64,000 nt of DNA, taken from the NCBI RefSeq assembly GCF_001282115.1, contig NZ_LJBR01000037.1:1-64000 (forward strand). The letters are read 5' to 3'. Shown here one piece after another: positions 5,182-41,905 of the stretch (the stretch's first letter is position 1; each line of letters opens with the position of its first letter). The position numbers and the translations under genes were made by a program. The notes below the pieces were generated by a model. It was not told where the DNA came from and did not search any database. It saw only the letters and a program-made list of their open reading frames with translations. The DNA comes from Streptomyces sp. NRRL B-24085 (GTDB lineage: Bacteria; Actinomycetota; Actinomycetes; Streptomycetales; Streptomycetaceae).

Positions 5182-5367
5182 ATGACTGCCATCACCCTGC
5201 GGATCCCCGACGCCATGGACAAGCCGCTGCGGGACGCTGCGGCCGACGCCCCCTCGCTGAACGACTACATCGTGCGCGCCGTGCGTCGGCAGATGACGCT
5301 AGATGCCGCCCGCAAACTCGCCACCATCGCTCCGCTCGATCTCGCGGGCGAGGGCGACGCCCTGTGA
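5182..5367 (+). CDS. Type II antitoxin, ribbon-helix-helix-like
   Basis: 61 residues from ATG 5182; upstream in-frame starts would add unrelated residues and ignore the dyad. The N-terminal strand ITLRIPDAMDKPLRD followed by SLNDYIVRAVRRQM resembles the CopG/RHH DNA-binding unit. The C-terminal tail would wrap the toxin. The stop overlaps the toxin GTG (GTGA at 5364-5367), giving the antitoxin-first translationally coupled order typical of MazEF/PemIK modules. Confidence 0.75.
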   Translation: MTAITLRIPDAMDKPLRDAAADAPSLNDYIVRAVRRQMTLDAARKLATIAPLDLAGEGDAL

Positions 5368-5675
5368 CCATCCGCAAGGGCGACGTCTGGGACGTCGACA
5401 CCGGCAAGGGCACCCGCACCGTTCTCGTCGTCAGCCTCGACGGCCTCGCCGAGGCCTACAACGCTGTAGTCGTCCTCGTCCTCCATGCTCCCGCACAGCA
5501 TCCCGACACGGCCATGAGCGTGCATCTGACCACTCCGGTCGACGCCTCCCTCGTAGCTGTGAACCTCCTCCAGCTCTCCGCCATCCGCTTCGAAACCGGC
5601 ACGCTGCACGGCAACATCGGCCCCGAGCAGCAAGAGCTCGTCGACAACGCCCTCCGCGCGGTCCTCGACCTGTAG
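5364..5675 (+). CDS. PemK/MazF-family mRNA interferase toxin
   Basis: 103 residues from GTG 5364. It begins IRKGDVWDVDTGKGTRTVLV, the PemK/MazF opening strand pair (normally RGDVW-VDLG...RP-LV). The middle NLLQLSAIRF corresponds to the conserved strand giving the base-binding loop, and the C-terminal helix is EQQELVDNALRAVLDL. Family members cleave mRNA at short single-stranded sites and are blocked by the cognate antitoxin. The usual catalytic Arg/Thr pair is only partly recognisable, so activity is an inference. No frameshift: one of the few intact genes in this border. Confidence 0.75.
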   Translation: MTIRKGDVWDVDTGKGTRTVLVVSLDGLAEAYNAVVVLVLHAPAQHPDTAMSVHLTTPVDASLVAVNLLQLSAIRFETGTLHGNIGPEQQELVDNALRAVLDL

Positions 5676-32640: not shown

Positions 32641-32714
32641 CCGTAGCGTCCCCCACCCGTCGGCTCGGTGTCCCGGGTCCTGGAACGCGGTTGCACGAAT
32701 TCGTCGAGCCCATA

Positions 32715-32739
32715 CTCAGGTTGAATCCGTGATGTCCGG
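32715..32739 (+). repeat. IS630 left terminal inverted repeat
   Basis: Identical in inverted orientation to 33858-33882 over 25 bases, 27 including the flanking TA. It begins CTCAGGTTGAATC and ends GATGTCCGG. Confidence 0.9.
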
Positions 32740-32779
32740 GCGGGGTGACGGGTCGTGATCCCTGCGGTACGACGTCCTC

Positions 32780-33881
32780 ATGCGGTACGCGCAAGGGGGC
32801 GGGTTGACGCCTGTTGAGCAGGTGAAGCGGGAGGCCGTGCGGCTGGAGGCTGCCAAATCGTTCGAGGCCGGGGCTGCCACGGCGCAGATCGCGGTCGAGT
32901 TGCGGGTGACGGATCGGTGGTGCGCCGGTGGCGGGCGGCCTGACGGCAGGGCGGTGTCGCAGCCCTGGCGTCGGCGGGGCCGATGGCGGTGGAGAAACTC
33001 TCCCCGCAGCAGTTGCAGCGGCTGGAGGCGGAGTTGAAGAGAGGGCCGCTGGCACACGGCTTCAACGACGAGGGGCAGGGCTGGACGCTGAAGCGGGTGA
33101 AGCTGCTGATCGGCCGTTTGTTCCACGTCGGCTACAGCGTCCAGGGCGTGTGGCGGCTGCTCAAGCGGCACGGCTGGAGCTGCCAGGTGCCGGTCCGGCG
33201 AGCGCTGGAACGGGACGAGGCGGCGATCGAGGTGTGGAAGGCCGAGCTGTGGCCGCGGGTAAAAGTACCGCGCACGACCGAGGCGCCCACATCTGCTTTG
33301 CGGACGAAAGCGGCCAGTCGCTGATCCCGCCGAGGGACCGGACCTGGGCGCCCCGCGGGGCCAGACCGGTGGTGCGGGTGGCGGGCCGTCGCGGCGGCCG
33401 GGTCAACATCGCCGGCGCGGTGTGCTTCAAGCCCGGCCACCGGCCGCGTATGTTCTTCAAGCTGCACGTCCACCGCGGCCGCAAGGGCGAGCCTAAGCCC
33501 TTCGCCTGGCACGACTACCGGGACTTCATCCGAATGGTGCACCTGCAGCTCGGTACTCCCGTCGTGTGGGTCTGGGACAACCTGAGCACGCATCTCCAGC
33601 AGGAACTCTTCGACTTCGAAGCGGAGCACAAGGACTGGCTGGTCATCTTCCATCTGCCGCCTTACGCACCGGAGATCAACCCGCAGGAAGGCATCTGGAG
33701 CCTGCTCAAGCGGGCGCTCGCCGACTTCGCCGCCGCCGACCTCGCACACCTGACCCGCGTCATCAAGCGGAAGCTCAAGAAGATCCAGTACCGGCCCCAC
33801 CTGATCACCGGCTGCCTGCCAGCCACCGGCCCGGACCTTCACGGCCTGATCGAGACACCGGACATCACGGATTCAACCTGA
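32780..33881 (+). pseudogene. IS630-family transposase in three frames
   Basis: The N-terminal HTH (LTPVEQVKREAVRLEAAKSF, EAGAATAQIAVELRVTDR) is interrupted by a one-base loss near 32912 and an in-frame TGA where Trp is expected near 32940. The second frame (AVEKLSPQQLQRLEAELKRG, HGWSCQVPVRRALERD) runs to about 33262. There an A4 run (GTAAAAGT) allows a -1 slip into the catalytic frame: HICFADESGQSLIPP (first Asp), VWVWDNLSTHL (second Asp), YAPEINPQEGIWSLLKRAL (Glu). The -1 site may be programmed, as in other IS630 members, but the first break makes the copy inactive. Confidence 0.85.
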
Positions 33882-33882
33882 G
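33858..33882 (-). repeat. IS630 right terminal inverted repeat
   Basis: Exact inverted copy of 32715-32739; it begins CCGGACATCACGG and ends AACCTGAG followed by TA. Confidence 0.9.
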
Positions 33883-33884
33883 TA

Positions 33885-34057
33885 CTGACTTCGGCGTTGC
33901 GGGGTCTGGATCTGTGTCGGGACTGGCGACGCGGTTTGTCCGGGTTGGTACGACGGGGGCATGCGGTATCCGGACGGTGGCGGGCTGATCGCCGAGCAGC
34001 GCAGGCGCCGGGAAGAGGTACGGATCCGGGCCCGGGGCAACCGCGGGCCGGGAGCCA
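33885..34057 (+). pseudogene. 5' fragment of a second, different IS630-type transposase
   Basis: From ATG 33961 the reading MRYPDGGGLIAEQRRRREEV matches the N-terminal start of another IS630 subgroup (usually MRYPDGGGLTAExRxRRExV). It stops within 30 codons at the end of the neighbouring TPR gene. The preceding 75 bases are probably its left end. Its 3' part is absent, so the conflict genes now occupy its place. Confidence 0.6.
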
Positions 34058-34060
34058 TTG

Positions 34061-35389
34061 TCAGGTGCCCAGGAAGTCGGCCAGTCCCTGACGGTACGCC
34101 CGGGACAGCCGGCGTAGCGGCCCCGGAGCCCCGCCCTGGGCGTCGAGCCGTCGGACCAGGTCCGCGACGATCGCCGCGGCCCGGTCCGAACGCTCGCCCA
34201 CCACACTGTCACCGCGCCACCAGACCGGCCACACCGGCAGATCCCAGACTGGGTGAGCCATGGCCTCCACGGCCTCCGCGCTCCCGGCCGGTGTCGTCAC
34301 CTTACGGTCGAGCTCGGCGACCACCAGCTCGAAGATCGTCGCTGCCCGGGCGTCCCGGCTGTCGAGGGCGAGTGCGAAGCCCACCGTGCCCAGGCACTGG
34401 TCACGCCAGGCCGGGGGGACGAACTGGACGATGCCCACGAGGACGTCGTGCGCCTGTGTGTACCGGCCCCCGCGCAGCAGGGCGATCCCGTGGTTGAACG
34501 CGACGTCGATGTCCTTGGGGTAGCGCCCGTAGGCGGCACGCAGTTCCTTCGCGGCCCGCTCGGCCCGGCCCGCCTCGGCGGCCCGCCGGGCGGCTTCAAG
34601 GTGCCGACGGGCCCGGTCGCGGTCGCGTGTCTCCTTGCGGATCTGCCGCGCGAGGTCCGCGGACCCCGGTGCCTTCAGCGCGGCGGCCTCGTCCGGCCGA
34701 CCCGTCATCAGCAGCAGCTGCACGCCGAGTTCGTTCCACCGGTGGTCATGGGGCCATTTGCGCCGCAGTACGGCGAAGGCGTCCCGCGCGCTGTGCACCG
34801 CTCCGAGCGCTCCGGCCGACTCCAGCAACTGGCCCCAGTACAGACGGACGTTGGGCTCCAATTCGACGGCTCGGTGCTCCAGTTCGATCGACGTCCCGTG
34901 ATCTCCCTGCCGTGCCCGCGCGATCGCCAGCGCGTGCAGGGCCACGACATGGGCGGGTGCTGCCGCGAGTATCCGGCTGGCCACCTCCTCGCATTCCGTC
35001 CAGCGCCCGGCCTCCAGCGCGGTCCGGATCCGCTGGAGCTCTTCCGCGTAGGGCTCCATGTCGCCCGCGGCCTCCTCGACCTCGAAGACGCCGCCATGGC
35101 CGTGCACGACCTGTGCCGGGTCCACGGTGGGCAGGCCCATATCGCGCAGCCGCGTCAGGTTCCTGCCGAGCTGGTCGGCCTTCTGGGCGGCCGTGGCCTG
35201 GTGGCGCAGGATTTTGATGAGGTGCAGACCGAGTCCCGTACGGCGGTTGACCAGGCTGTGGACGAAACGCTCGCCGCCCTGGCCGACGCAGGGGCCGATG
35301 ACGTACTCGGCGTCTCCCACGATCACCAGCCGGCCCTCGTACTCCTCCGGGTCGTCGGCCGCGATGTCCAGATGACGCGCGGGGCTCAC
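34061..35389 (-). CDS. TPR protein with kinase N-lobe-like domain
   Basis: 442 residues from GTG 35389, overlapping the upstream stop (GTGA). Residues about 15-110 resemble the N-lobe of a Ser/Thr kinase: VIGPCVGQGGERFVHSLVNR as Gly-rich loop, LGLHLIKILRHQ with the ATP-site Lys, and a helix. No HRD or DFG follows, so it is probably a kinase-like binding module rather than an enzyme. From about 125 on, tetratricopeptide-like helices repeat (EVASRILAAAPAHVVALHAL; IELEHRAVELEPNVRLYW; AYGRYPKDIDVAFNHGIALL). Probably a scaffold in a conflict or signalling system together with the next gene. Confidence 0.7.
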   Translation of the reverse strand: MSPARHLDIAADDPEEYEGRLVIVGDAEYVIGPCVGQGGERFVHSLVNRRTGLGLHLIKILRHQATAAQKADQLGRNLTRLRDMGLPTVDPAQVVHGHGGVFEVEEAAGDMEPYAEELQRIRTALEAGRWTECEEVASRILAAAPAHVVALHALAIARARQGDHGTSIELEHRAVELEPNVRLYWGQLLESAGALGAVHSARDAFAVLRRKWPHDHRWNELGVQLLLMTGRPDEAAALKAPGSADLARQIRKETRDRDRARRHLEAARRAAEAGRAERAAKELRAAYGRYPKDIDVAFNHGIALLRGGRYTQAHDVLVGIVQFVPPAWRDQCLGTVGFALALDSRDARAATIFELVVAELDRKVTTPAGSAEAVEAMAHPVWDLPVWPVWWRGDSVVGERSDRAAAIVADLVRRLDAQGGAPGPLRRLSRAYRQGLADFLGT

Positions 35390-36096
35390 AGCGCGGTCAT
35401 GGTGTCGTGGGCGGGCAGGGCGAGTTTCAGGAACAGCGGTGTGCCCACGACACGCTCGGACGAGGCGTCCAGCAGCAGGAAGACGGTGGTCATCCGCAGC
35501 CAAATCTCCTCCTCGAAGAACCGCATGTTCGCGGAGTTGATGTCGAACGAGCCGTCGGGCAGCGGTCCTTCGCTGAAGTTGCGCAGCGAGCAGTCGAGCA
35601 GCAGCCGGCGACCGCGGCCGAGGTCGGCGGCCACCGTCACGAACGAGTCCGTCTGCGGGGTGACCCGGGAGACCACCCGGAACGTGCCGCTGAAGTGGAA
35701 GTAGCCGGAACCGGACGCAGTAGCCTGCGCCCGCTGGAGTTCGGCCAGGTCCGGAATTGGGCTCCCGGCGGCCAGGGCCAGCATCACCCTCTCCAGCTTG
35801 CGCAGGTACGAGACCTTCACCTTCGCCTCGCGCTGGATCACTCCGGTACGGCCGTAGCTGCCCCCGGCCTTGAACAGGGTGATCACCTGGGGAACGCCCC
35901 AGTCCGTGTCCACCTTGCCGCTGGTGCTGGTCGTGGTGGATCGCAGCTCCGTGACCTCGTACTCCGCTTCCGGGTCGACCTGTTCGTACAGCTGGTCGAC
36001 CTTGCCGCGTGAGATATAGCAGAAGTACTCCAGCCGCCCGCCGGGCGCACCCGGGTTGTCGTCCCGCTGCACGCGGTGACGCCGCCACCATGCCAT
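35386..36096 (-). CDS. SAVMC3_10250/DUF7019-like protein
   Basis: 236 residues from ATG 36096. The opening strand GGRLEYFCYISRGKVDQLYE then VDPEAEYEVTELRS recalls a Streptomyces family I know as SAVMC3_10250 or DUF7019-like (YxxYxSxxKVDxLxxQI). The rest has alternating strands (SGYFHFSGTFRVVSRVTPQT; RRLLLDCSLRNFSEG) and a long final sheet. No signal peptide or membrane helix. Function unknown. Coupled to the TPR gene by a 4-base overlap, so the two are one unit. Family assignment is from memory and moderately sure. Confidence 0.55.
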   Translation of the reverse strand: MAWWRRHRVQRDDNPGAPGGRLEYFCYISRGKVDQLYEQVDPEAEYEVTELRSTTTSTSGKVDTDWGVPQVITLFKAGGSYGRTGVIQREAKVKVSYLRKLERVMLALAAGSPIPDLAELQRAQATASGSGYFHFSGTFRVVSRVTPQTDSFVTVAADLGRGRRLLLDCSLRNFSEGPLPDGSFDINSANMRFFEEEIWLRMTTVFLLLDASSERVVGTPLFLKLALPAHDTMTAL

Positions 36097-36162
36097 GCAG
36101 CCATGGTGCCCGAGCGACGCCGACGGGGGGAGCCGGTCGGCGAAGATCCCGATCAGCCGCTC

Positions 36163-36364
36163 ACGAGAAGGCGTCTGGAGCCTGCTCACGAGGGCCCTGG
36201 CCAACTTCGCCGCCGCCGACCTCGCACACCTGACCCGCGTCATCAAGCGGAAGCTCAAGAAGATCCAATACCGGCCGCACCTGATCACAGGCTGCCTGCC
36301 ACCCACCGGCCTTGACCTTCAGGGACTGACCGAGACACCGGACATCACGCATTCAACCTGAGTA
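36163..36364 (+). pseudogene. 3' end of another IS630 copy (direct repeat of 33680-33884)
   Basis: About 200 bases nearly identical to the end of the complete IS630: GVWSLLTRALANFAAADLAH, LTRVIKRKLKKIQYRPHLIT and the right inverted repeat with one mismatch, followed by TA. Together with the full copy it flanks the TPR/SAVMC3 pair by a direct repeat. The fragment starts inside the last third of the transposase gene. Confidence 0.85.
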
Positions 36365-36562
36365 CTTCATTACATGTACGTCGGCGCTGCGACGGCTGAG
36401 AGCCAGGACGTCGCCCAACCGGCCGGGGCCGTACTTGCGGCGAATTCATGCGCGGTCGGCGAGCTGGGCTCTACGGTGGGGCGACCAGCCGGGCGGGTGA
36501 TCGAATTGCGCGGGGTTTTCCACGCTTCCCGCTCTGCTGCCACCAGGGGAGGGCGAGAAACG

Positions 36563-36973
36563 ATGGACGTACGCATTCGGATCGAGTGCACCGACGCCGC
36601 GGAAGGGAACGCTGCGGAGTTGACCGAAGCGTTCGCGGATTGGCTGGGTGAGGACCGTGCGGTCGCCGCGCACGCGGACATCCGCAAGGTGCGCCAGCCG
36701 CGGAACGACGGCGGGATGTCGGGCGACGTGCTCAGCTGGATCTCGCTTGGCACGAGTTCAGGCTTCTCGGCGGCGGCCCTTGCCTACTCCCACCTGTCGT
36801 ATCGGGCATCGCTGCCGCGTCGGGTGCAGGCGGCCACGCGCCTCGTCATCGAGCGTGGCTCCACGCGAGTCACCATCGAGGGCGGCTCTGCGGACGACGT
36901 CTCCCGTATCGCTCAGGCTCTGGGTGCGGCCGAACTGGCCGGGCCTGCTGCCTCAGCCGACCCGTTGGCATAG
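36563..36973 (+). CDS. EACC1 (effector-associated constant component 1) protein
   Basis: 136 residues from ATG 36563 (GAGGGCGAGAAACG ahead). Beta-alpha start MDVRIRIECTDAAEGNAAEL, TEAFADWLGEDRAVAAHADI, a central Gly/Ser helix (SWISLGTSSGFSAAALAYSH), then strand VIERGSTRVTIEGGSADDVS. This wording matches EACC1, a small partner encoded just before caspases, trypsin-like or other effectors in actinomycete conflict systems. Here it is 8 bases before a caspase gene. The fold and role are predicted only. Confidence 0.75.
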   Translation: MDVRIRIECTDAAEGNAAELTEAFADWLGEDRAVAAHADIRKVRQPRNDGGMSGDVLSWISLGTSSGFSAAALAYSHLSYRASLPRRVQAATRLVIERGSTRVTIEGGSADDVSRIAQALGAAELAGPAASADPLA

Positions 36974-36981
36974 GACCTCCG

Positions 36982-39069
36982 GTGGCGCTACCCAATACGG
37001 GAACGAGTGCGGCGGTACTGATCGGCGTGGCCGCGTACACCCGGCTGGATCCCCTGCCCGCGGTCACCGCAGGGGTGACGCGGATGGCCGAACTGCTGCG
37101 CGACCGCCAGGTGTGGGGCCTGCCGAGGGAGCAGGTCACTCTGCTGGGGTCCAACGCGTCCAGAGACACCGTCCTGGGCGCGGTTCGGGATGCGGCGTCC
37201 GGCTGCACCGACACGCTGTTGGTCTACTTCGCCGGACATGGGCTGCGCGATCGTAGCGATGAGCTGTACCTGGCCCTGGCCGACGCCGACGATGAGCACC
37301 CGGAGATCGCAAGCCTGGCCTATCCGGAACTGCGCCGGGTCGTGGGGCGCGCGGGATACCGGGCGCGGCGCCGCATCACGATGCTGGACTGCTGTTACAG
37401 CGGCCTGGCAGGCGGGATGGGCGCGGCGACCCTTGCCCGTCCGGACCTCGCCCATCTTCTGGAGGAGGACGGCGACGACGAGCCCGAGGGCGGAGACTAC
37501 GGCAGCTGTGTGCTGACATCGGCGCCGAAGACCGGCCGCTCCTTCGCACCGCCCGGTGCACGGTATCCGGAGTTCACCGGTGAGCTGATCGAAGTTTTGG
37601 AGCACGGCATCCCGGACGCCGGACCGACCCTCAGCGTGGAACAGATCTGGCGGCGGGTGCGCCGCCGGCTGCTGACGCAGGGCAGCCCCGAGCCCCAGCA
37701 GTTCGGACACAACGCGGTCGCCCGCCAGGGCTGGGTGCACAACCGCGCGCACGGCCGCGCCCCCTCGTTCAAAGAGCCGTTCGAGGCCCCCACCGGCACT
37801 GCCCCGGCTCCAGCCGCACCGCCCTTGCGCCCCGATGCTGTCCTCAGGGCAGCATCGCGAACGACCGGTCAGAGCCTCCAGACGGCACCCACCCCTCAGG
37901 CACCGCCCATGCCCCAGCCGTCGGCTCTTCCCGGGAGCGCTCGGCCAGCGGTGCGGGGCATCACGCGCCGCCGGGCAATCATGCTGGGCACCGCGGTGGC
38001 AGCCTTGGCCGGCGGCATCGCCGAAGCCGTCAACCTCACCTCGGGCACGCATTCCGAACCCGACAAATGGCGCCTGCGCTGGCGATTCGATGCCGCCAAC
38101 GCACTCAGTGCCGCGCCCACGATCGCGGACGGCGTGGTCTACGTCGGCAGCGGCGACTACAACCTTTATGCGATCGACGCCGCCACCGGCACCAAGAAGT
38201 GGGCCTTCAAGACCGGCGACCAGATCAACTCCTCGCCCGCCGTGGTGGACGGGGTGGTCTACTTCGGCAGCGATGACCGCAACGTCTACGCTGTACACGC
38301 CGATACCGGCAGGAAGAAGTGGTCGCACCAGACCGGCAAAGCCGTGGCCGCTTCGCCCGCGGTCGTGGGCGGGACGGTGTACATCGGTGGCTGGGACAAC
38401 CACATGTACGCGCTGGACGCGGCGACTGGCGCCGAGAAGTGGTCCTTCCCCACGGGCGCCTACGTCGACGAAGTGCGGCCGGTGGTGGTGGGCGGTCTGG
38501 TGTACTTCGGCAGCCTCGACAAGAGCTTTTACGCCCTGGATGCTGCGACGGGAAAGAAGAAGTGGGCTTACGAGATCGGCGCCTCGTCCTCGTCGCCCAC
38601 CGCGGCGGGAGGCACGGTGTATGTGGGGGGCGGGAATGACAGCGTGTTCGCGCTGAATGCCGCGACCGGCACCAAGAAGTGGTCCTACCGCGGCGACGCA
38701 CAGGCCACGACCAACCGTGACAGCGAGATCACCTCCTCGCCAGTGCAGGCCGACGGCGTCCTCTACGTCGGCAGTTGGGACCACAACGTCTACGCGCTGG
38801 ACGCCGCGACCGGCACCAAGAAGTGGGCCTACGAGACCGGCGACGAGGTATGGGGCGGTCCCGCCGTAGTCGGCGGTGTGGTCTACATCGGCAGTTTCGA
38901 CCACCGTCTCTACGCGCTGGACGCCGCCACCGGCACCAAGAAGTGGAGCTACGAAACCGACTTCCAGATCCCCAGCTCACCTGTCGTCAAGAACAGCACG
39001 GTGTTCGTCTGCAGCAATGGTCAGTACGTCTACGCCCTGGACACGAGCGCCAAGAAGCCCTCGAGCTAG
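36982..39069 (+). CDS. Caspase-family protease fused to a PQQ-type beta-propeller
   Basis: 695 residues from GTG 36982. Residues about 8-215 are a caspase/metacaspase domain with His86 (VYFAGHGLRD) and Cys138 (TMLDCCYSGL). A Pro/Ala linker (265-320) leads to GITRRRAIMLGTAVAALAGG (325-345), a twin-arginine/transmembrane segment. From about 360 seven or eight PQQ-like blades repeat xYALDAATGTKKWxxxTG. The layout suggests a cytosolic protease anchored to, or exported across, the membrane with the propeller outside as sensor. Forms an operon with EACC1. Such systems are proposed to kill or arrest cells on invasion; the trigger is unknown. Confidence 0.85.
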   Translation: MALPNTGTSAAVLIGVAAYTRLDPLPAVTAGVTRMAELLRDRQVWGLPREQVTLLGSNASRDTVLGAVRDAASGCTDTLLVYFAGHGLRDRSDELYLALADADDEHPEIASLAYPELRRVVGRAGYRARRRITMLDCCYSGLAGGMGAATLARPDLAHLLEEDGDDEPEGGDYGSCVLTSAPKTGRSFAPPGARYPEFTGELIEVLEHGIPDAGPTLSVEQIWRRVRRRLLTQGSPEPQQFGHNAVARQGWVHNRAHGRAPSFKEPFEAPTGTAPAPAAPPLRPDAVLRAASRTTGQSLQTAPTPQAPPMPQPSALPGSARPAVRGITRRRAIMLGTAVAALAGGIAEAVNLTSGTHSEPDKWRLRWRFDAANALSAAPTIADGVVYVGSGDYNLYAIDAATGTKKWAFKTGDQINSSPAVVDGVVYFGSDDRNVYAVHADTGRKKWSHQTGKAVAASPAVVGGTVYIGGWDNHMYALDAATGAEKWSFPTGAYVDEVRPVVVGGLVYFGSLDKSFYALDAATGKKKWAYEIGASSSSPTAAGGTVYVGGGNDSVFALNAATGTKKWSYRGDAQATTNRDSEITSSPVQADGVLYVGSWDHNVYALDAATGTKKWAYETGDEVWGGPAVVGGVVYIGSFDHRLYALDAATGTKKWSYETDFQIPSSPVVKNSTVFVCSNGQYVYALDTSAKKPSS

Positions 39070-39459: not shown

Positions 39460-40734
39460 GCAGAGCTTGCCCCCGGTAGTGACAGCGACGAGCGACAGCC
39501 TGACGGTGTCGTCTCCACGCCGACCAATTCAATGCGTGGGTGACGGGATCGTGGTCGGCTCGTGGCCGGGGCAGGAGAGCGTCCAGGAGCCGCCGGATCT
39601 CTGCCACCGTGAGCGGGACGAGGGCTGATGCGTTTCTGCAGCCCCCTTTGTGTCGCTGCTGGCCTCGGCCGCGAGTGCGGTCAGGACTGCATGGGCGAGC
39701 ATCGCGAGTGTGATGTGTCGATGCCAGCCGATGTAGCGTCGGACTTCGTACTCATCCAGGCCGCACTCGTTCTTCGCGGCCTGGAAGCACTCCTCGATGG
39801 CCCAGCGGCTGCCGGCGATCCGGGCCAACTCGGCGATTTCGATGCCGGCGGAAGCGTAGGCCATGTAGTAGGCGATCTCGCTGGGGTCGGACAGGCTGCG
39901 CCGGGCCATCACCCAGCGGTGATGCGTGGGCGGATCAGGGTCGAAGATGATGTTGCCGGGCAGTTTTGCTGCGGCCCAGTCGTAGATGCGCGGGCCCTTC
40001 GCCCCGTCGCCGCAGGACAGCCGCTGCCAGACATCACCAGGTGCCTCGTCGATGAGTTGGTCGATCCGCCAGATACCGGCCAGGGACTTGATCTGCTGGG
40101 ACTTGGGCACCGCCACCACATAGCCGACGTCGAGTTGTTCGAGCAGACGGCGGAAGTGCCAGTCCTGTCCATAGGCCTCGTCCGCGGTGACCCATGCGGC
40201 GGGCAGGCCGGCAGCCAGGCAGCGATGCATGATGTCCCTGGCCAGTTCGCCTTTGGTGGCGAAGGCCCGCTCGTCGGGGATCTTCGCTGCTCGGCACCGC
40301 TCGCGGTCAGCCGTCCAGGACTTGGGCAGGTAGAGTTCCCGGTCTACCAGAGCCCGGCCAGAGCCGGTGGCGTAGGCGGCGAACACCCCGATCTGGCAGT
40401 TGTCGATCTTCCCGGAGGTGCCGGTGTACTGTCGGCCCACCCCGGCCGACGTAGTGCCCTTCTTGATGAACCCAGTGTCATCGATGATCAGCACACCGTC
40501 GGGCCCCAGTCGTTCCGACACGTAATCACGGACATTGTCGCGCAGGGCGTCTACGTCCCAAACGCTACTGTTCAGCAGCCGCTGGAAGCCGTCAGGGGTC
40601 CGGTGGCCTTCCCATTCCGCAAGCTGCCAGCCGTTCTTCCGCGTCGACCGCCCCAGCAGACCACGAACGTAATCCCGCATCCGCCACCCGAGCGAATACC
40701 GACTCCAACTCAGCAGCCCAGCAAGCGACTTCAC
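39460..40734 (-). pseudogene. IS701-family transposase, 5'-truncated, C-terminal frameshift
   Basis: Starts within the usual N-terminal domain (MRDYVRGLLGRSTRKNGWQL; about 30 residues short of family starts). DDE residues are visible: Asp in VLIIDDTGFIKKGTTSAG, Asp in AAWVTADEAYGQ, Glu in GSRWAIEECFQAAKNECGLD. Near 39625 the frame shifts. The conserved ending (VAEIRRLLDALLPRPRAD, LNWSAWRRHRQAVARRCHY) lies in a neighbouring frame to about 39460. The 5' loss coincides with the neighbouring IS5 insertion. Confidence 0.8.
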
Positions 40735-40800: not shown

Positions 40801-41905
40801 AGAGGGCGTTTTCTTCTGTTGTTTCATCCCGGATTGCCGGATTGAGGTGGTTCACGTGCCGCGCCAGCTCGGGGTGGATTCGGCGGTGAGGCGACGGGTC
40901 ATGAGGTTGATCATCGCGAGGTGAACCATGGCTTCGGAGCGGTGGGGGTGGGCTTCGTAATCGCGGGCCAGGCGGCGGTGGTTCATCAGCCAGCCCAACG
41001 TTCTCTCGACGGTCCACCGCCGGGGCAAGGCGGTGAAGCCTCTGGCGGCAGGGTCGCGGCGGACGATGTGCATATCGATCCCGAGGGTCGCGGCGTGCTC
41101 GACGAGGTACTGGCGGTAGCCGCCGTCGACCCAGGTCTTGCGGACGGTGGGATGCTCGGCGGCCACCTTCTCGATGAGGGCCTGGCCGGCGACGGAGTCC
41201 TGCACGCTCGCGGCCGTGACCAGCACCGCCAGCAGCAGACCGACCGTGTCGATGACGATGCTCCGCTTACGGCCCACGATCTTCTTGCCCGCATCGACAC
41301 CTTGGCCGGATGCCGGGACGTTGGTGGACGTCTTGATGCTCTGCGAGTCGATGACGCATGCGCTGGGTTCGGCCTCGCGGCCTTCCTGCCTGCGGACTTG
41401 GCGGCGAAGGAGACTGTTGAACTGGTCGAAGACGCCCTCCTCCTGCCACCGGGCGAAGTAGGCGTAGACAGTGTTCCAGTGCGGGTAGTCGTGCGGGAGG
41501 TAGCGCCAGGGGATCCCGGTGCGGTTTACGTAAAGGATCGCGTCCAGGAGGCTGCGCAGGTCATGGTCGGGAGGCCGGCCGATGTCCAGTCCACGGCCGC
41601 GGCGTTCAGCTCGCCAGGCGGTCAGGACTGGCTCGACCAACTCCCAGCGGGCATCGGACAGATCACTCGGATATCGGCGGCGTTCAGGCACAATTCGGGA
41701 CTACCCGCAAGGCGCAGGCGCGCGTGCCAGCGCTCGAAGCGCACGGCGCATAGTCCGGCGCCTTGGGATGAAACAGGAGCAGCCAGGCCAAGACGCCCGC
41801 TAAATCAACTCTCCTGCAACGCAGACCCCATCAACCTCATCGCTCACACCAGGTCCGGCATGAAAACCTATCTAAAACACCTTGATAAAGCGCAAAACAC
41901 CCTCT
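40801..41905 (-). mobile_element. IS5-family insertion sequence, apparently complete
   Basis: About 1.1 kb bounded by short inverted repeats AGAGGGCGTTTT (40801-40812) and AAAACACCCTCT (41894-41905), one mismatch. One intact transposase lies inside. A target duplication could not be assigned. Its right end is 48 bases upstream of the chloramphenicol leader peptide, and its left end truncates the IS701 gene. Confidence 0.8.
40852..41691 (-). CDS. IS5-family transposase
   Basis: 279 residues, uninterrupted. N-terminal DUF4096 region (SDLSDARWELVEPVLTAWRA; HDLRSLLDAILYVNRTGIPW). DDE catalytic set: ACVIDSQSIKTS (Asp), KTWVDGGYRQYLV (Asp) and RRWTVERTLGWLMNHRRLAR (Glu). The normal length and unbroken frame suggest it may still be active, unlike every other transposase in the window. 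Confidence 0.9.
   Translation of the reverse strand: MPERRRYPSDLSDARWELVEPVLTAWRAERRGRGLDIGRPPDHDLRSLLDAILYVNRTGIPWRYLPHDYPHWNTVYAYFARWQEEGVFDQFNSLLRRQVRRQEGREAEPSACVIDSQSIKTSTNVPASGQGVDAGKKIVGRKRSIVIDTVGLLLAVLVTAASVQDSVAGQALIEKVAAEHPTVRKTWVDGGYRQYLVEHAATLGIDMHIVRRDPAARGFTALPRRWTVERTLGWLMNHRRLARDYEAHPHRSEAMVHLAMINLMTRRLTAESTPSWRGT

Follow-up and report, generated by a model that had tools for sequence, protein, structure and literature searches.

A coupled gene pair in Streptomyces links a divergent DUF7019 relative to a TPR protein with a putative kinase N-lobe

We describe a two-gene unit of Streptomyces sp. NRRL B-24085 that probably represents a non-catalytic form of an actinobacterial operon type. 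Operons of this type pair a DUF7019-family protein with a large repeat protein, at whose head a Ser/Thr kinase often stands. Both genes lie on the reverse strand of the window, by which we mean the whole 64,000-nucleotide stretch of DNA analysed here. The first gene encodes a DUF7019-like (SAVMC3_10250-like) protein of 236 aa (35386..36096; ATG at 36096, TGA at 35386-35388, with an alternative in-frame GTG start at 36072). The second encodes a protein of 442 aa (34061..35389; GTG at 35389, TGA at 34061), in which a kinase N-lobe-like domain (residues ~20-106, 35072..35332; G-loop GQGGERFVH, beta3 LIKIL) precedes a TPR superhelix (residues 113 to ~340) and a poorly predicted C-terminal tail (together 34064..35053, also on the reverse strand).

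The start of the second gene and the stop of the first overlap by 4 nt in a GTGA (35386..35389, reverse strand), which is ATGA in both orthologues. A scan of genome contigs identified one relative carrying both genes, Actinosynnema sp. ALI-1.44 (L043), and a search of the Actinosynnema family (249 genomes) yielded a third pair (L169). The gene order and the 4-nt overlap are identical in the three genomes, which bears out the claim of an earlier sequence-only reading that the DUF7019-like and TPR genes are translationally coupled at this place, and supports the pair as a real unit. The DUF7019-like orthologues in L043 and L169 are ~57-59% identical to the Streptomyces protein. The second protein is 35% identical overall between Streptomyces and L043, with 53% identity in the N-lobe region, its best-conserved portion, and 28% in the remainder; used at full length as a query, it returned only generic TPR matches. 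The TPR gene has a dN/dS of ~0.40 between L043 and L169 and the DUF7019-like gene one of ~0.27, indicating that both frames are maintained. Genes for a LysR protein, an MFS protein and a response regulator flank the pair in both of these genomes, which makes them a single vertical lineage, with the Streptomyces copy representing a second one.

The small protein sits at the edge of its family. PF22880 (DUF7019) scores 21.9 bits against the Streptomyces protein, where the cut-off is 22, and 22.1 bits against the L043 orthologue, and NF040893 (SAVMC3_10250) gives 21 bits, under its cut-off of 50; we therefore regard the protein as a divergent DUF7019 relative and not as a called member. An hhalign comparison with 17 DUF7019 proteins gave an E value of 1.8e-6, over only 28 columns, and the predicted model of the protein (pLDDT 39) was too poor for a fold search. 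In the 442-aa protein, TPR families exceed the Pfam cut-off, and the first ~110 residues are without a Pfam match.

Several lines of evidence suggest that residues 1-110 are the N-lobe of a kinase with its catalytic lobe missing, as had been proposed from the sequence, and this assignment is supported, not proven. An AlphaFold2 model, built on an alignment of only two sequences and of fair confidence up to residue 60 but low confidence for residues 84-101, predicts strands at 27-38, 41-48 and 56-61, a helix at 64-83 and strands at 95-97 and 100-106, with the TPRs following. This order, beta1-beta2-beta3-alphaC-beta4-beta5, is that of the elements of a kinase N-lobe and supports the kinase reading. 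A profile of residues 1-110, searched against the 249 Actinosynnema-family genomes, matched only three sequences besides the orthologues (E 1.2e-5, 1.3e-5 and 1.3e-4, calculated per genome), and each of the three lies at the start of a predicted Ser/Thr kinase, with an alignment that begins in the G-loop region. When 198 genomes of the class were searched at a relaxed threshold, the 29 best of the weak matches retrieved included 17 kinases, aligned at the corresponding position. An independent HMM built from 12 kinase N-lobes aligned collinearly over residues 29-104 and scored the Streptomyces, L043 and L169 proteins higher than nearly all of 2000 shuffled sequences. Actinobacterial PknB-type kinases read RYEIGEvIGrGGMAEVH...GRrVAIKILR where the N-lobe/TPR protein reads EYVIGPCVGQGGERFVH...GLHLIKILR, a similar beta1-G-loop-beta2-beta3 pattern.

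Residues 1-110 could instead form an unrelated beta-rich domain that happens to carry a glycine loop. The Pfam Pkinase model has no significant match to the N-lobe/TPR protein, an hhalign comparison of the N-lobe with the DUF7019-linked kinases covered 22 columns and stayed below significance, and of 2000 shuffled sequences, 2 (Streptomyces), 5 (L043) and 21 (L169) scored as well against the small N-lobe HMM. However, the profile searches repeatedly return kinases in the correct register and the predicted order of elements is that of an N-lobe, so that we consider an unrelated domain rather unlikely. The missing Pkinase and hhalign matches could also mean that the N-lobe stems from another kinase lineage. 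A sequence search of the PDB with the N-lobe profile found nothing significant, the DCLK1 kinase being among the weak matches (E 0.5), and a fold search with the whole N-lobe/TPR model returned only TPR proteins and was uninformative about the N-lobe.

Whatever its ancestry, catalysis by this protein is very unlikely to judge from its residues. The beta3 lysine of the VAIK position is Lys59 in the Streptomyces protein and leucine in both orthologues, no alphaC glutamate is conserved across the three, and a C-lobe with HRD and DFG motifs is absent, the TPRs starting at residue 113. In these respects, it differs from PknB-type Ser/Thr kinases, which possess the C-lobe and both motifs and conserve the lysine and the glutamate. 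The same losses would be expected if the gene were the drifting remnant of a kinase whose C-lobe had been lost. We give this explanation little credence, because the truncated architecture is identical in three genomes, the N-lobe is the part under the strongest conservation, and the dN/dS ratios between L043 and L169 are well under 1. Pseudokinases normally retain both lobes, and a literature search returned no precedent for pseudokinases that combine an N-lobe alone with TPRs.

The neighbourhoods of canonical DUF7019 genes provide the context for this architecture. DUF7019 is present in 28 of 296 Streptomyces genomes, and we inspected 29 loci, up to 7 kb on each side. An adjacent kinase gene on the same strand lies within 104 nt in nine of the 29: directly downstream, within 53 nt, at seven loci (L045, L046, L047, L052, L053, L054 and L061), and directly upstream at L066 and L067. 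All five of the downstream kinases that were scanned with Pfam are Pkinase-WD40 fusions. At five further loci (L048, L049, L051, L055 and L056), DUF7019 is followed by a repeat protein of one type, which consists of HEAT repeats in L048, the one scanned. Kinases account for 15 of the ~320 neighbouring genes at DUF7019 loci, and most of them fall within those operons. The Streptomyces pair follows the same habit, with the DUF7019-like gene first and, directly downstream, a repeat protein whose head appears to derive from a kinase. Because a Pkinase-WD40 or HEAT gene often comes next after a canonical DUF7019 gene, we read the pair as a form of this operon type in which the kinase part is inactive. 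It shares with the DUF7019 and Pkinase-WD40 operons a small gene immediately upstream on the same strand, whereas it has the N-lobe only, TPRs in place of WD40 repeats, and a distant DUF7019 relative at the family cut-off. The DUF7019 and HEAT-repeat loci likewise place the DUF7019 gene before a non-catalytic repeat protein, but one built of HEAT repeats and without a kinase piece. The literature searched contained no paper on DUF7019 or SAVMC3_10250.

Two further features were seen at these loci. DUF7019-kinase loci also carry a protein of ~240 aa that neither NCBIfam nor PADLOC matches (L045, 8882-9610; L050, 7387-8097). The kinases of L066 (6121-7290) and L067 (7886-9049), of ~388 aa, have an unusual N-terminal extension, and in each case the next gene downstream is a divergent DUF7019 gene.

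Upstream of the pair and divergent from it are an EACC1 gene (36563..36973, forward strand; PF19953, 44.3 bits) and a gene for an EACC1-type caspase with PQQ/beta-propeller repeats (36982..39069, forward strand; NF047832, 201.9 bits; GHG and DCC motifs). The sequence-only reading had correctly recognized this neighbour, and had gone on to suggest that the four genes act jointly. Such a four-gene conflict or defence system would account for the adjacency in the Streptomyces genome, and inactive kinase domains do occur within related actinobacterial conflict systems (PMC7159879). The proposed co-occurrence did not extend to the other genomes examined, however. At 20 EACC1-caspase loci from 120 relatives, no DUF7019, DUF7019-like or N-lobe/TPR gene was found within ~6 kb, and no EACC1-caspase adjoins the pair in L043 or L169; the Actinosynnema genome L043 encodes five EACC1-type caspase homologues, none of them on the contig of the pair. 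Kaur et al. 2020 (PMC7159879) describe EACC1-caspase as a conflict system of two genes; it is complete without the pair, to which its linkage is not conserved. We regard joint action of the four genes as very unlikely and judge both EACC1-caspase genes to lie outside the unit. Chance is the best account of their adjacency to the pair, in a stretch rich in IS elements. Two more DDE transposase genes, at 39529-40734 and 40852-41691 on the reverse strand, which we take to be IS701-like and IS5-like, respectively, make 32.7-41.7 kb rich in such elements.

The pair had also been described as bracketed by a complete IS630 and a near-identical 200-base end, and interpreted as a mobile or deletable defence cassette. 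Both are indeed present: an IS630 element of 1.17 kb lies downstream of the pair (32711..33886, forward strand; 27-bp terminal repeats, TA at both ends, DDE_3 PF13358), and the 200-nt right end of a related IS630 lies upstream (36167..36366, forward strand; terminal repeat 36338-36364, TA). Completeness and near-identity are where the description falls short. The transposase frame shifts twice and is interrupted by a stop codon, so that the element is unlikely to move unaided, and the second end differs from it at 16 of 200 bases (92% identity), which indicates that it derives from a related element and is no recent copy. We found no other copies of the IS630 in the assembly, a draft of 692 contigs that may under-represent repeats, and plasmids gave a match of 139 nt at 79% only.

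The outer repeats (32713-32739 and 36338-36364) are correctly inverted, each with TA on its outward side, and past mobilization of the 32713-36364 unit by a related transposase is therefore possible. This arrangement, together with the patchy spread of the pair (1 of 296 Streptomyces genomes and 2 of the 249 Actinosynnema-family genomes), would fit an independent defence pair carried between IS630 ends. Against this, the transposase is broken, neither orthologous locus (L043, L169) has an IS element beside the pair, the viral contigs and PLSDB plasmids searched contain no copy of it, and PADLOC assigned no family to either Streptomyces protein or to the L169 orthologues. We consider a mobile defence pair improbable; mobility is weakly supported, and a defence role is no more than possible. 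Elsewhere in the window, at 5182-5675 on the forward strand, two short overlapping genes resemble an antitoxin and a MazF-like toxin, as read from the sequence.

Returning to the pair as a kinase-dead operon variant, we infer its function from the architecture described above. The DUF7019-like and N-lobe/TPR proteins may form a complex, in which the TPR superhelix would serve as a scaffold or sensor and the N-lobe would be retained for the binding surface that it offers and not for catalysis. The most plausible option is that the N-lobe docks on the corresponding lobe of a genuine Ser/Thr kinase and thereby tunes that kinase, although, taken alone, we offer this step only tentatively; alternatively, the N-lobe may bind its DUF7019-like partner. 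In Mycobacterium, PknB, PknD and PknE dimerize and are activated through an N-lobe surface (reviewed in PMC3601408), which suggests that an N-lobe standing by itself on TPRs could activate a true kinase or titrate it. We regard as speculative the further proposal that a kinase N-lobe, having lost its C-lobe, has become a conserved module in its own right: carried by a TPR scaffold and kept with a DUF7019-type partner, it would regulate true Ser/Thr kinases by docking on them and not by enzymatic activity.

If so, half of a kinase, retained in three genomes of actinobacteria within an operon type that usually includes a whole one, would offer a natural test of regulation by the N-lobe alone. 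More broadly, the DUF7019 family is otherwise undescribed, and the finding that its genes often directly precede those for Pkinase-WD40 or HEAT proteins points to a role that can be tested, that of partnering kinases and scaffolds made of repeats.
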